This document shows, in pieces, positions 52,157-57,726 of a stretch of DNA of 64,000 nucleotides. The stretch covers positions 496,001-560,000 of the forward strand of contig NZ_RKLR01000003.1 in NCBI RefSeq assembly GCF_019599465.1, given 5' to 3'. The notes under the pieces are model-generated. The model saw nothing but the letters and a program-made list of their open reading frames with translations. It was not told the DNA's origin and made no database searches. A program made the position numbers and the translations under genes. Each line of letters starts with the position of its first letter. Within the stretch, counting starts at the first letter, position 1. The stretch is from Haloarcula rubra. Lineage in GTDB: Archaea > Halobacteriota > Halobacteria > Halobacteriales > Haloarculaceae.

Positions 52157-53074
52157 TCAGAAACGAGGGTCGTCCGGCCCGCCGGCCGGGCCACCGCCGG
52201 GCGGTTTGCCGCCGCCGAGGCCCTCGTCCAGCGAGGGTTCGCCCGCCCCCTCCACGTCCGCCGTCGTCCCGACGTGTCGCTGGAGGAACTCGGCGGTCCG
52301 CTCGTAGACGTCGTCGTAGAACGCCCCGTTGAACGGGAAGGCGTGACCGCCGGGGACCGGGTCGTACGTCACCTCTGTCAGCGGGTCGAGCGTCCGGGCC
52401 AGCAGTTCCGACTGGGCCGGCGGGAGCACGTCGTCGTCCTCGCCGTGGAGCAACAGCGTCGGCGGCATGGAGACGGTGGCCTGTGCGACCGGGGAGGCGA
52501 GTTCGTAGGCCTCGGGGACCTCCTCGGGGCCGCCGCCGAGGTACTGTCTGTCGATGTCCTCGTCTCCCGCCGCCGTCTCCGCCATCGCCCGGAAGTCGTA
52601 GACGCCCGCGTAGCCGACGACGGCCGACAGTTCCGAGGACGCGCCGGGGTAGAGGTCCGGTTCGAGGGCCGGGTCGTCGGCCGTCGCCGCGGCGAGTACC
52701 ACGAGGTTCGCGCCGGCCGAGTGGCCGACGGCGACGACTCGCTGTGGGTCCGCGCCGTAGGCGTCCGCCTCCGACCGACACCACTCGATGGCGGCCTTCA
52801 CGTCGACGAGTGCGGCCGGGAAGGTGTGTTCGGGTGCGAGGCGGTACTGCGGTTCGACGACGAGGTAGCCGTCCTCCGCGAGGTCGATAGCGTGCCGGGC
52901 GAACTCGCCCTTGTCGCCGACCGTGAACCCGCCACCGCGGACGAGGACGGCGACCGGTTTCGGCCCGCTACTGGCCGTCGACTCGTAGACGTCCAGCAGT
53001 AGCGTCTCGCCGCCCGCCTCGTGGAACGGGACGTCCCGGTCGACGGTGACCGTCGTCGGAGCGCGCTCTGTCAC
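52157..53074 (-). CDS. alpha/beta hydrolase (esterase-like, HSL group)
   Basis: 305 residues from GTG 53074 (VTERAPTTVTV), chosen because a TATA-like gtttttatt lies about 28 bp upstream. Nucleophile GHSAGANLVVLAA, Asp in LLHGEDDDVLPP, and His in PGGHAFPF form the triad. The oxyanion motif HGGG of the HSL group reads RGGG (VLVRGGGFTV). The C-terminal 25 residues are Gly/Pro-rich (GLGGGKPPGGGPAGG). Cytosolic; likely esterase, substrate unknown. A decayed hsp20 gene sits just upstream. Confidence 0.85.
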   Translation of the reverse strand: MTERAPTTVTVDRDVPFHEAGGETLLLDVYESTASSGPKPVAVLVRGGGFTVGDKGEFARHAIDLAEDGYLVVEPQYRLAPEHTFPAALVDVKAAIEWCRSEADAYGADPQRVVAVGHSAGANLVVLAAATADDPALEPDLYPGASSELSAVVGYAGVYDFRAMAETAAGDEDIDRQYLGGGPEEVPEAYELASPVAQATVSMPPTLLLHGEDDDVLPPAQSELLARTLDPLTEVTYDPVPGGHAFPFNGAFYDDVYERTAEFLQRHVGTTADVEGAGEPSLDEGLGGGKPPGGGPAGGPDDPRF

Positions 53075-53111
53075 GTCTCGTCCTGCGGTCGGCTGGAATA
53101 AAAACGCGTCG

Positions 53112-53433
53112 GGGTTCGCCCTCGGTTTCGATGCGCCTGCCGCGGGCGACGGCACCCTCGGAGACGGGCGGGCGGACTTCGAGGACACCGTTGGTGTAGC
53201 TCGCGGCGATGTCCTCGTCGTCCTCGTACTCTGCGGCGACGTTCAGCATCCCGTCGTCCCACGTCACGTCGATTTCCCCGACGCCGAACCCGGGCAGTTC
53301 GACGCTGAGGACGAACTCGCCGTCTTCCTCGTACAGTTCGTAGTCGTCGCTGCCTGTCTCGAACAGTTGGCTCGGGAGGTCGAGTCCTCGCGTCCACGAA
53401 CTCGGTGTCGTGGGCAGTGCCCTCGCTGTTCAC
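53112..53433 (-). pseudogene. decayed Hsp20 small heat-shock protein gene
   Basis: Starts at GTG 53433 (VNSEGTAHDTEFVDA); a frameshift follows, after which the Hsp20 frame reads GLDLPSQLFETGSDDYELYEEDGEFVL, SVELPGFGVGEIDVTWDDGMLNVAAEYEDDEDIAASYTNGVLEVRPPVSEGAVARGRRIETEGEP. The region normally between the WDDGMLNVAAE and IAASYTNGVLEV strands is shortened, removing part of the alpha-crystallin core. No stop ends the protein; it runs into the hydrolase promoter. So the gene is broken by at least two lesions. Confidence 0.65.
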
Positions 53434-53491
53434 CTCGATTCACTAGATGCTTGTTCGCGGTTCGGAAGAAATGTTTATAACCACGATACAT

Positions 53492-53506
53492 TGTTACAAA
53501 GTAACA
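53492..53506. promoter_or_regulatory. palindrome upstream of the hsp20 remnant
   Basis: TGTTAC-aaa-GTAACA, 6-bp perfect arms, about 15 bp upstream of a TATA-like ttataaac (minus strand, about 53474-53481). Likely an operator left from the heat-shock gene; it also lies about 110 bp before the sensor kinase on the other strand. Confidence 0.55.
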
Positions 53507-53613
53507 TATCAAATTCAGTGACTTCGTGTCGTCATTCCGGCACCATTTCGCCCCGAGACGCCGAATCTCGACCGGTAAAACAAAGTTGTCTTTTCGCATA
53601 CCCGTAGTCGACT

Positions 53614-55992
53614 ATGTACGGCTTCTTCGTGGCGTCACTGTACGCTACGGCCGTCATATCGCTCCTCTTTGCCGGCGTCGCGTGGCGCAAGCGGGGCGAC
53701 CCGGGCGGGACGCCGATGGTCGTGTTCCACCTCGCTCTGGCGGTGGGAGCGGCGGCGTACGCCCGCGACATCGTCGCGACGACGCTCGCGGCACAACTCC
53801 CGTGGGCGATGGTCTCGGCGGTCGCACAGGGCGTCACCGCCATCGCTTGGCTCTACGCGGCACTCCAGTACTCCGGGTTCGAGCGGACGCTGACGCGCCG
53901 TGTCGTCGGGCTCCTGTCGCTCGAACCCGTCTTGCTCGCCCTCGGGTTCCTCACGCCGGCGGTGACCATCGCCGAGTGGCCCAGTACGGGACTGACCGGG
54001 TCGCTCCTGCAAGCGGGCGAGACCACGTTGACGACGCTGTTCTTCTTCCACTCCGTGACGATACTGCTCGCCGCACTGGCCGGGACGATTCTGCTGATTC
54101 GGCTGTTCGTCCGGTCGCGCCACCTCTACCGGACCCAGTCCGCCGCCGTCCTCGTCGCCGCGCTGACACCGTGGACGGTCGGGCTGACGCAGAACTTCTT
54201 CGTCAATCTCCCGGAGGACGCGAGCATCTTCGCGTGGGGCCTCTCCGGGATGGCACTCACCGCCGGTCTGTACACGTTCAAGAAACTGGACCCGGTGCCG
54301 GCGGCGCAGGCGGCCATCGTCGAGAACATGGGTGACGGCGCAGTCGTTCTCGACGTGGACGGGGTCGTCGGCGACGCGAACCCCGCCGCACGGCGACTGC
54401 TCGGGTTCGAGAGCGAGTCACTCGTAGGCCGGCACATCGCCGACGTGGTCGACGGCTGGGACGGCCTCGACTGGGACGACCCTGACGCCTCCGGCTGGCA
54501 AGAACTTCCCCTCACAGGCGACGGCGACCCCCGCTTCGTCGAGGTCGAGGTGTCGCCGTTCACCGACCGGTTCGACGACGTCGTCGGGCGCCTCGTCGTC
54601 CTCCGGGACGTCACCGAACGAAAGCGCCGCGAACAGCGACTCGCACAGTACAAGACCATCTTCGACGCGGTGAACGAACCCGTCTACGTCCTCGACGAGA
54701 ACGACAACTTCGTTCGATACAACGCGCCCTTCGCCGACCTCGTGGGATACGACGAGTCGGCCCTCGTCGGCAGTCCGTTCGCCGCCGTCCTCGCCGGTGG
54801 CGAGACGGCCACGGACGGCGACGGGGTGACGGAGGTCACTATCACTACGGCCTCGGGCGAAGAGGTGCCCTGCGAGGCCGACCTCGCGGCGGTGGAGTTG
54901 GCCAGCGGTGCGACGGGCCGGGTCGGCATCGTCCGCGACATCTCCCAGCGGAAGGCCATGGAGTCGGAACTGGCACAGACGACCGAGCGCCTGGAGACGC
55001 TGGTCGAAGCGTCGCCGCTCGCCATCGTCGCCCACGATACCGAGGGCGTCGTCGACGTCTGGAACCCCGCGGCGGAGTCGCTGTTCGGGTGGCGCGCCGA
55101 GGCGGTCCGCGGCGAACCACTCCCGATAGTGCCCGACGACAGAGAGACGGAACTGATGGAGCGTCACCGGGAGGTCCAGTCCGGAAACCGGCTCACCGGC
55201 TACGAAACCGAACTCGAACGCGAGGACGGGAGTCTATTCAGTGCCGCCGTCTCGGCGGCCCCCATCACCGACACGAACGGCACCGTCGTCGGCACCGTCT
55301 CCGTCATCGCGGACATCAGCGAGCGGAAGGCCCAGCAACGGCTGCTCGAACGCCAGAACGAGCGCCTCGACGAGTTCGCGAGTCTGGTCAGTCACGACCT
55401 CCGGAATCCGCTACAGGTGGCGACTGGCAACCTCGAACTGGCCCGCGCCGACGCGACGGGGACGGTACGCGACCGAATCGACGCGGCCGGGGACGCGCTC
55501 GAACGGATGGAGGCGCTCGTCGACAAGACACTGTCGCTCGCTCGGGAGGGCCGCGACATCGGCGCGACCGAACGCACCGACATCGGCGCTCTCGCCGAGC
55601 GAGCGTGGCGAACGGTCCAGACCGAGGGCCACTCGCTCTCGGTCGACGCCTCACCGACGGTTGAGTGTGACCCCGACCGCGTCGCGGAACTGTTCGAGAA
55701 CCTGTTTCGGAACGCCGTCGAACACGGTCAGAACGGTACAGACGCTCCACTCACGCTCACCGTCGGCGAGTTGCCCGACGGGTTCTACGTCGCGGACGAC
55801 GGCGTCGGCGTCCCGGCCGACGTCCGTGACCGCGTGTTCGAGTCGGGGTACACCACCTCGCCGGACGGCACCGGGTTCGGCCTCGCCATCGTGCAGACCA
55901 TCGCCGACGCCCACGGGTGGGACGTGACGCTCACCGAGAGCGAGTCCGGCGGCGCGCGCTTCGAGTTCGCCGGCGTGGAACGGACGACCTGA
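53614..55992 (+). CDS. membrane sensor histidine kinase with three PAS domains
   Basis: 792 residues. A seven-helix N-terminal membrane module (about 1-220, MYGFFVASLYATAVISLLFAGVAW..., ending before LDPVPAAQAAIVE) of the HisKA_7TM type, then three PAS domains (about 230-345, 350-455, 465-570), a HisKA helix with SHDLRNPLQVATGNL (phospho-His), and a HATPase (N box LFRNAVEHG, G boxes DDGVGVPADV and DGTGFGLAIV). No response regulator is adjacent, as is usual for haloarchaea, so its partner is unknown. It meets gltX end to end with no gap. Confidence 0.9.
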   Translation: MYGFFVASLYATAVISLLFAGVAWRKRGDPGGTPMVVFHLALAVGAAAYARDIVATTLAAQLPWAMVSAVAQGVTAIAWLYAALQYSGFERTLTRRVVGLLSLEPVLLALGFLTPAVTIAEWPSTGLTGSLLQAGETTLTTLFFFHSVTILLAALAGTILLIRLFVRSRHLYRTQSAAVLVAALTPWTVGLTQNFFVNLPEDASIFAWGLSGMALTAGLYTFKKLDPVPAAQAAIVENMGDGAVVLDVDGVVGDANPAARRLLGFESESLVGRHIADVVDGWDGLDWDDPDASGWQELPLTGDGDPRFVEVEVSPFTDRFDDVVGRLVVLRDVTERKRREQRLAQYKTIFDAVNEPVYVLDENDNFVRYNAPFADLVGYDESALVGSPFAAVLAGGETATDGDGVTEVTITTASGEEVPCEADLAAVELASGATGRVGIVRDISQRKAMESELAQTTERLETLVEASPLAIVAHDTEGVVDVWNPAAESLFGWRAEAVRGEPLPIVPDDRETELMERHREVQSGNRLTGYETELEREDGSLFSAAVSAAPITDTNGTVVGTVSVIADISERKAQQRLLERQNERLDEFASLVSHDLRNPLQVATGNLELARADATGTVRDRIDAAGDALERMEALVDKTLSLAREGRDIGATERTDIGALAERAWRTVQTEGHSLSVDASPTVECDPDRVAELFENLFRNAVEHGQNGTDAPLTLTVGELPDGFYVADDGVGVPADVRDRVFESGYTTSPDGTGFGLAIVQTIADAHGWDVTLTESESGGARFEFAGVERTT

Positions 55993-57726
55993 TCAGGGGT
56001 GCGCGAAGTACGCGACGGACTCGCCCTCGGGCGCGATATCGTCTATCCGAGCGAAGCCGATGCGCTCGAACTGGAGCATCTCGTCGGCCTCGTAGTCGAG
56101 CACGCCCGGTTCTGCGACGCCGGTCACGTCGCCGTCCATCGTCCGGAGGCGGAGTTCGGGACCGTCGGCCGGTGCCCAGTGGACCACGTCGACGCCCTCC
56201 TCGCGGACCGCCGAGATGTCGTCGCCGACGTACTCGAAGGCGTCGCGAGTGTGACGGACACAGCCGTAGCCCTTCAGCCAGACTCGCTCGCCGTGGCCCG
56301 GCAGGTCGTCGCCCTCGACGGCGACGCCGGCCGCGACCGGAATCTCGCGTCGGCCTCGGTCCTCGTGGTCCGGGTGGTAGGGTGGTTCGCCCGCGTCGGG
56401 GCCACCCACTATCTGTCGCTCGACGAGGCCGCCGTGGTCCTCGCTGTCCCGGACGAAGAAGGCGCGGTCGGTGTCGTCGTCTATCAGCTCGCGGTTGTTG
56501 GCGTACACCGACGACATCGCGAGGTCGACGTTCGACGTGGAGGTGCCGAGTTCGACCATCGCGTCGACCAGCGCCTCGCCCCGGATGCCGCGCCGCTCGA
56601 GACTCGCCACCGTCGGCGCACGCGGGTCGTCCCAGCCGTCGAGTTCGCCCTCGGCTATCAACTCGGCGATGGTCGAGGTCGACATCTGCACGTCGTAGGC
56701 GTCGACCTGCACGTGGCCCCAGTGGACGACTTCGGGGTACTCCCAGCCGAAGTAGTCGTAGACGAACTGCTGGCGCTTCGCGGAGTCCTGCAGGTCGATA
56801 CCGCGGATGATGTGTGTGATGCCCAGCAGGTGGTCGTCGACGCCGCTCTGGAAGTCCAGCATCGGCCAGCAGCGGTAGTCGGCGGCCGCCTCGCGCGGAT
56901 GGGGCGTATCTATCATCCGGAAGGCGACGAAGTCACGCAGGGCCGGGTTCTTGTGGGTGATGTCGGTGCGGACCCGGAGGACCATCTCGCCGCTGTCGTA
57001 CTCGCCGTCGACCATCGCGTCGAACTCCTCGTGGACGGTGGCGACGTCCTTCTCGCGGTGCGGACAGGCCTCGCCGCTGTTCTTCATGTCGGAGAACTCC
57101 CCCTGCGGGCACGAGCAGGTGTAGGCACCCTCGGCGTCGATGAGGTCACGGGCGTAGTCGTAGTAGGTCTCGACCCGGTCGCTCGCTTTGAACACGTCGT
57201 CGGGTTCGAAGCCGAGGTAGTCGATGGCGTCCAGAATCTGGTCGTAGGCGTCTAAGTCCGGCCGCTTCGTCTCGGGGTCGGTGTCGTCGAACCGGCAGAC
57301 GAACTCGCCGTCGTAGCGCTCCTTGTACGTGCCGATGACAGCGGCCATCCGGGCGTGGCCGACGTGCCACGGGCCGTTGGGGTTCGGCGCGACGCGCATC
57401 CGCACGGTGTCGTACTCCTCGACGTTTGGCAGGTCGGGGAGCGGGTGGTCCTCGCCTTCGTCCTCGGCCTCTAGTTCTTCGAGTTTCTCGGGCGCGAGTT
57501 CCGAGAGACGCTCGCGGCGTTCCTCTGCGTCCATGCCGTTGACTCGGTCGACGACCGGTGCTATGACGCCCGGAATCTCGTCGCCGTACTCCCGGAACTT
57601 CGGGTTCTCGCCCATGAGCGGCCCCATGATGGCCCCGACCTGTGCCTCGCTGTCGTGTTTGACCGCGTTGAGGAGGGCGTTCGTCTCGGCGGCCTCCTCG
57701 ATACGCTGGCGCAACGCGTCGTCCAT
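55993..57726 (-). CDS. gltX: glutamate-tRNA ligase (archaeal type)
   Basis: Class I aminoacyl-tRNA synthetase of the archaeal GlxRS type, 577 residues. N-terminal helical part (1-100, including an acidic EDEGEDH run), then HIGH box as PWHVGHARM, zinc-site-like CSCPQGEFSDMKNSGEACPHR, DYRCWPMLDFQSGVDDHLLGITHI, and KMSKS equivalent QMSTSTI. Archaeal GltX usually charges both tRNA-Glu and, indirectly, tRNA-Gln. Start at MDDALRQRIEEAAETNALLNA. Downstream kinase meets it without spacing. Confidence 0.93.
   Translation of the reverse strand: MDDALRQRIEEAAETNALLNAVKHDSEAQVGAIMGPLMGENPKFREYGDEIPGVIAPVVDRVNGMDAEERRERLSELAPEKLEELEAEDEGEDHPLPDLPNVEEYDTVRMRVAPNPNGPWHVGHARMAAVIGTYKERYDGEFVCRFDDTDPETKRPDLDAYDQILDAIDYLGFEPDDVFKASDRVETYYDYARDLIDAEGAYTCSCPQGEFSDMKNSGEACPHREKDVATVHEEFDAMVDGEYDSGEMVLRVRTDITHKNPALRDFVAFRMIDTPHPREAAADYRCWPMLDFQSGVDDHLLGITHIIRGIDLQDSAKRQQFVYDYFGWEYPEVVHWGHVQVDAYDVQMSTSTIAELIAEGELDGWDDPRAPTVASLERRGIRGEALVDAMVELGTSTSNVDLAMSSVYANNRELIDDDTDRAFFVRDSEDHGGLVERQIVGGPDAGEPPYHPDHEDRGRREIPVAAGVAVEGDDLPGHGERVWLKGYGCVRHTRDAFEYVGDDISAVREEGVDVVHWAPADGPELRLRTMDGDVTGVAEPGVLDYEADEMLQFERIGFARIDDIAPEGESVAYFAHP

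Follow-up and report, generated by a model that had tools for sequence, protein, structure and literature searches.

Remains of an hsp5-type hsp20 gene in Haloarcula rubra and the perfect palindrome upstream of it

A 64,000-nucleotide stretch of Haloarcula rubra DNA (the window; contig NZ_RKLR01000003.1, positions 496,001 to 560,000) carries a damaged hsp20 gene and, between it and a divergent histidine kinase gene, a perfect palindrome. The locus raises two linked questions: whether the gene is dead, and whether the palindrome is a heat-shock operator, a site belonging to hsp20 alone, the operator of the kinase gene, or none of these. The genome carrying the remnant was 4.67 Mb in 37 contigs and contained seven other hsp20 genes and three thermosome genes. 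Across 32 genomes of the genus the order at the locus was gltX-[kinase]-hsp20-esterase, the kinase gene being present or absent depending on the genome. The genes of the locus and the marks left on the hsp20 remnant were as follows.

52157..53074, minus strand: alpha/beta hydrolase (BD-FAE type esterase) gene, adjoining the hsp20 remnant
53095-53108: CGCGTTTTTATTCC, probable own promoter of the esterase gene, present likewise in G030 and almost unchanged in G002
53115..53117, minus strand: old stop codon of hsp20, now a sense codon
53118..53423, minus strand: body of the hsp20 (hsp5-type) remnant, in all likelihood a pseudogene, placed by alignment to intact orthologs
junction within 53211-53231, minus strand: 60-nt in-frame deletion (20 codons, alpha-crystallin core)
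within 53403-53414, minus strand: 3-nt in-frame deletion (one codon, near the N-terminus)
53421-53423, minus strand: altered start codon, placed by alignment to intact orthologs
53430..53436, minus strand: GAGGTGA, likely Shine-Dalgarno sequence of the old gene, conserved in most orthologs
53614..55992, plus strand: 7TM-PAS histidine kinase gene, divergent from the remnant
55993..57726, minus strand: presumably gltX (glutamyl-tRNA synthetase), anchor of the conserved locus

The Hsp20 body was recognized on the minus strand between 53423 and 53118, as the first-pass annotation had described, and alignment to intact orthologs bore out the shortened core (20 codons missing) and the absence of a stop (the codon being altered). 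The N-terminal frameshift that it had also proposed was not found; a single frame was open from the old start site to the old stop site with no internal stop, and the lesions consisted instead of an altered start codon, deletions of 3 and 60 nt that both kept the frame, and the altered stop codon. The translation after the altered start codon (53420 to 53118, minus strand) was ALPTTPSSWTRGLDLPSQLFETGSDDYELYEEDGEFVLSVELPGFGVGEIDVTWDDGMLNVAAEYEDDEDIAASYTNGVLEVRPPVSEGAVARGRRIETEG. With the stop lost, the remnant's frame extended into the beginning of the esterase gene, which is read in a different frame. The remnant matched only positions 3-40 of the 102 positions of the Pfam HSP20 profile (PF00011), and an intact ortholog matched positions 3-101; the complete alpha-crystallin domain expected of a functional Hsp20 was lacking, as were a start and a stop codon in one frame, both being altered. 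The deleted core segment included the HRRF stretch that is common to the intact ortholog and the low-molecular-weight heat-shock protein 3gla, whose structure is solved. When this genome (G000) was compared with the fragment in its sister G030, dN/dS was 0.77 (47 codons), and five intact pairs gave 0.09-0.22; against three intact genes the ratio for G000 was only mildly raised, at 0.18-0.42. Replacements at positions invariant in the eight intact orthologs did not set the remnant apart (7/69), because the intact gene of G002, left out in turn, had a similar share (10/97). By its lesions the remnant is almost certainly a pseudogene. Continued expression of a shortened protein from a later or non-standard start is highly improbable: CTG codons do occur early in the open frame, from codon 3, but no in-frame GTG occurs before codon 53 and no ATG before codon 59, a stop stands three codons before the lost start, and the product would lack 20 core codons and a terminal stop and would depend on a promoter with a changed TATA position. 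Sequencing error was also considered as the cause of the damage and was thought unlikely, since four separate lesions would be required in one gene and the same gene was damaged repeatedly in relatives.

The intact protein of G024 was 69.9% identical over 123 aa to an Hsp20 encoded on pNRC200 of Halobacterium salinarum NRC-1, the gene for which adjoins a CDC48 gene. Over residues 2-123, with gaps counted, the remnant shared 67.2% identity with the G024 protein, and it lay at the same locus as eight intact copies, so that best sequence match and shared locus place it by descent in the hsp5 orthologous group. The record of the pNRC200 gene does not carry the name hsp5; we infer this identity from its location on the plasmid beside a CDC48 gene and from the tables of PMC1971269, in which hsp5 is placed on pNRC200, 6201 hsp5 is 3.05-fold up on heat shock and 6199 is listed as cdc48d. 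A passage on hsp5 in a review (PMC9133787) states that the BRE and TATA of its promoter are sufficient for the heat-shock response. The Halobacterium gene and the remnant had in common a similar TATA-GAA..GC promoter layout and a GGTGA leader; they differed in that the remnant was damaged in its start, core, stop and TATA position, and in that the Halobacterium promoter had no close TGTTAC dyad. In Haloferax mediterranei the intact hsp5 ortholog was followed, after about 420 bp, by a PadR-family regulator gene (L254 2293-2577). PadR sites are TGT...ACA dyads, and the promoter of the H. mediterranei ortholog was checked for the dyad and had none.

Full-length hsp20 was present at the locus in 8 of the 32 genus genomes (G002, G003, G009, G012, G015, G019, G024 and G028) and a damaged gene in another 8 (G000, G006, G011, G020, G022, G025, G029 and G030). 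Only traces of the leader or tail were seen in 3/32 (G005, G007 and G008; by eye, at kinase-bearing loci only), and no hsp20 was detected at the locus at E 0.001 in 13. The assemblies of G007, G011 and G025 were at most 80% complete, and G018 and G025 had another hsp20 copy elsewhere in the genome. A tree was built from the esterase and the gltX end; 30 of 32 rows had the esterase, three rows were filled to less than half, and 14 of the 29 inner branches were weak. On it the intact state required 8 changes, at least 6 of them forced by starred branches, and it showed no stronger clustering than labels assigned by shuffling. The lesions of the hsp20 fragments differed between G000 and G030, which were sisters (98/98). 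The count of changes on the tree cannot by itself separate loss from gain; loss was favoured because relics were found at the same place. Judged from these alignments and the tree, loss of hsp20 at this locus is recurrent and ordinary in the genus, which often sheds this chaperone gene, and the remnant is an ordinary pseudogene. One small-chaperone gene is thus missing or damaged at its usual site in 24/32 genomes, and seven other hsp20 genes persist here. A literature search for a Haloarcula small heat shock protein pseudogene returned no paper, and related searches showed nothing relevant by title or abstract opening among the matches listed.

Two further observations were made at the same locus. 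The kinase gene beside gltX was likewise truncated or fragmentary in several relatives, with residues 333/340-792 only in G027 and G001 and small pieces in G017 and G023. One contig, G015:C1, carried two hsp20 copies (L105 and L131), both in the gltX-esterase setting and near 35 kb and 3,299 kb; these copies, near opposite contig ends, are probably the uncut overlap of a circular assembly.

The stretch upstream of the old start held the remains of the promoter, the palindrome and an element belonging to the kinase gene.

53452..53463, minus strand: GAACCGCGAACA element, unchanged, following the TATA position immediately on its 3' side and like the element in thermosome promoters
53465..53472, minus strand: position homologous to the TATA of intact orthologs, changed, now ATTTCTTC
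53473..53480, minus strand: TTATAAAC, the TATA of the first-pass annotation, beside the homologous position and not at it
53492..53506, no strand: TGTTACaaaGTAACA, the palindrome (TGTTAC-N3-GTAACA, a perfect inverted repeat); the old hsp20 start lies 83 nt downstream of its far edge
53571-53585: promoter-like element of the kinase gene itself, ACCGGTAAAACAAAG here, conserved, 29-43 nt before the kinase ATG

In intact orthologs the start was preceded, at a distance of about 40 nt (28 in one), by GAACCGC or a near variant of it; 16/18 intact entries had this element by four strict spellings and 18/18 by a looser pattern. A TATA-like stretch directly before the element was seen by eye, the TATA position of intact genes reading, for example, ATTTATTA or ATTTATTC. 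At the remnant GAACCGC was kept and the TATA position was changed, leaving the BRE/TATA-type heat-shock core promoter (TATA directly before GAAYCRC) incomplete. The earlier statement that the TATA of the gene persists was not confirmed, since TTATAAAC adjoins the homologous position. The three thermosome genes of this genome carried TTTATATAGAAYCRC, in which TATA is followed directly by GAAYCRC; in this layout haloarchaeal thermosome (cct) promoters resembled those of intact hsp20 orthologs and differed from the remnant with its changed TATA position. The pattern TTWWTWNNGAAYCRC gave 24 matches in 6 genomes and 1 in the control, and of the 24, 16 preceded thermosome genes, 3 this hsp20 (G015 contributing two) and 5 other genes; the pattern was written after the thermosome and hsp20 promoters had been viewed, and 19/24 matches at those genes are therefore partly by construction, so that its added information is how few further sites (5) match in the 6 genomes. 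Neither G003 nor G024 was picked up at its intact hsp20 promoter, and in this genome the matches were those at the three thermosome genes and a single further site, with none at the promoter of the remnant. When intact, the gene would have drawn its heat response from the core promoter (BRE/TATA with the GAACC element next to it), in line with what is reported for Halobacterium hsp5, without need of a palindromic operator.

The palindrome TGTTAC-aaa-GTAACA itself was present and perfect, as first described. The window contained 560 perfect inverted repeats with arms of 6 bp and spacers of 0-10, 50 of them with spacer 3, and 34% of letter shuffles of the intergenic stretch (n = 500) contained such a repeat, with 0.044 per shuffle at spacer 3. 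The symmetry alone means little, because such repeats are common both in the window and in the shuffles. The exact palindrome was rare, occurring at 2 sites in the 4.67-Mb genome and at 11 sites in 8/32 genomes genus-wide, with none for the reversed control; no common function was found among these genus-wide sites. When up to 2 mismatches were allowed, this genome had 49 sites versus 30 control sites. The exact palindrome preceded none of 18 intact ortholog entries, which comprised 16 distinct promoters and two repeats (L130 being the same gene as L023, and L131 and L019 the two copies of G015; L017 was excluded here and included in the test of 17 promoters below). Halobacterium hsp5 and the H. 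mediterranei ortholog had nothing close to it, the best match over 250 nt having 5 mismatches, and the sister genome G030 had lost the stretch that holds the palindrome. The palindrome is most likely a chance occurrence or a lineage-specific repeat with no heat-shock role, and we regard it as slightly more likely than not that it has no role at hsp5.

The palindrome could instead be a relic that outlived the gene: Haloarculaceae would have a degenerate site specific to hsp5 promoters, of which this is the most complete copy. On the comparisons that follow we rate this reading as less likely than not. Among the 18 entries, 2 had a copy with 2 mismatches and 3 a copy with 3, where letter shuffles, which control neither local A+T nor kinship, gave fractions of 0.7% and 5.8%. 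Across 17 promoters from -130 to -50 relative to the ATG, a region chosen after the 18-entry result, the dyad ranked 2 (<=2 mismatches), 6 (<=3), 36 (<=4) and 5 (sum) of 960. In a 48-base region preceding the TATA stretch, the summed mismatches of 12 representatives ranked 1-8 of 960 palindromes of the same composition, the spread reflecting which of six close relatives represented their clade; this test left out L028, the broken G041 and this genome itself. None of 2000 letter permutations of the 48-base region did as well (two clade representatives tried). The same rank test elsewhere gave 68 of 960 for thermosome genes (6 genomes), 336 for the kinase, 896 for the esterase and 601 for the hsp5 leader, so the high rank was not seen at other genes, and the thermosome promoters differed from this locus in having no comparable dyad upstream. 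The best copies before intact hsp20 were those of G003 and G033 (2 mismatches each) and of G015 and G028 (3 each), and that of G033, from another genus, was at the same distance as the palindrome here.

However, the 48-base region had been picked after the positions of the matches were visible, and by threshold counts the ranks within it ranged over 1-26 for <=2 mismatches and 5-27 for <=3. Over whole upstream stretches, which include the conserved TATA and leader and may thereby favour other patterns, the dyad ranked lower, its place among the 960 being 18-71 for 250 nt, 67-240 for 150 nt and 89-265 for 100 nt. Its distance from the promoter varied (-35, -43, -50), and in G009, G018, G032, Halobacterium and H. 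mediterranei the dyad was absent from the 48-base region (5-6 mismatches). When five intact loci were tested singly, only G003 stood out against shuffles, and the loss of the stretch in the sister G030 also counts against the relic reading. Column conservation of six sequences picked for their common spacing would be circular and was not used, nor was a five-sequence subset picked afterwards (rank 1). The whole-stretch ranks lowered our estimate for an hsp5-specific relic from evenly balanced to its present tentative standing. The first-pass annotation stands as regards the broken gene; its suggestion that the palindrome may simply be a relic is less likely than not to be right, the degenerate copies being enriched in a region chosen afterwards and weakly or not at all over whole stretches. 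The palindrome is a weak candidate site at hsp5-type promoters, a haloarchaeal heat-shock promoter which, going by the passages cited above, has already been studied experimentally.

A stronger form of the relic reading would give hsp5 of Haloarculaceae a second, gene-specific switch, a dyad of the TGT-N9-ACA type placed just ahead of BRE/TATA, to which an undescribed regulator would bind. We consider this unlikely, having earlier rated it somewhat higher and marked it down because of the same whole-upstream-stretch ranks. Such a switch would supplement the TFB-directed heat response of the core promoter, and the relic here would be its best-formed copy. A bacterial-type regulator at an hsp20 promoter would resemble in idea the Phr and HSR1 heat-shock repressor sites of Pyrococcus and Archaeoglobus; Phr requires TTTA, TGGTAA and AAAA around the transcription start.

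It had also been suggested that the palindrome now serves the divergent histidine kinase gene. The palindrome does lie between both genes, 107 bases before the kinase ATG, but the kinase has the conserved element of its own described above, and the rank of 336 gives no preference for the pattern in kinase upstream stretches. None of six tested kinase-bearing genomes without a complete hsp20 (G005, G006, G007, G008, G026 and G031) kept the dyad within 2 mismatches; G021, in which the kinase begins differently, was left out of this comparison. At loci with intact hsp20 the dyad was found within 2 mismatches in 1/5 tested (G003 only), and the contrast between the two kinds of locus is weak because the other 4/5 lacked it as well. 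The dyad thus gave no sign of association with the kinase and a faint one with hsp20, and we consider it very unlikely that the palindrome is the operator of the kinase gene in this lineage.

The first-pass annotation had seen in the palindrome the likely heat-shock operator of the lineage, and a search before intact hsp20 genes and other heat-shock genes, as it proposed, found none: the exact palindrome was missing from all 18 intact entries, and copies within 2 mismatches were missing, by coordinate comparison, from the promoters of the seven other hsp20 genes and the three thermosome genes of this genome. Judged by the criterion that the annotation itself had set, this refutes the proposal. 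The tolerant site nearest to any hsp20 (C11:9371) lay behind that gene. A general operator is suggested by the position upstream of the hsp20 relic and by an exact copy before a tfb-like gene in G005 and G019, but the absence from those ten promoters and the rank of 68 at thermosome promoters of six genomes leave it extremely improbable, and the palindrome is very probably not a general heat-shock operator.

Two of the palindrome sites elsewhere in the genus may be conserved between genomes. In L093 (G019) and L096 (G005), the exact TGTTACNNNGTAACA at 1501-1515 was located about 385 nt upstream of near-identical tfb-like genes, presumably TFIIB-like, and it is possibly a conserved site near a general transcription factor gene. 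In L090 (G026) and L097 (G008), an identical TGTTACCCGGTAACA at 1501-1515 was located between a regulator gene, presumably of the ArsR-like type, and a divergent gene for a 218-aa protein; this site looks like the conserved operator of a different system.
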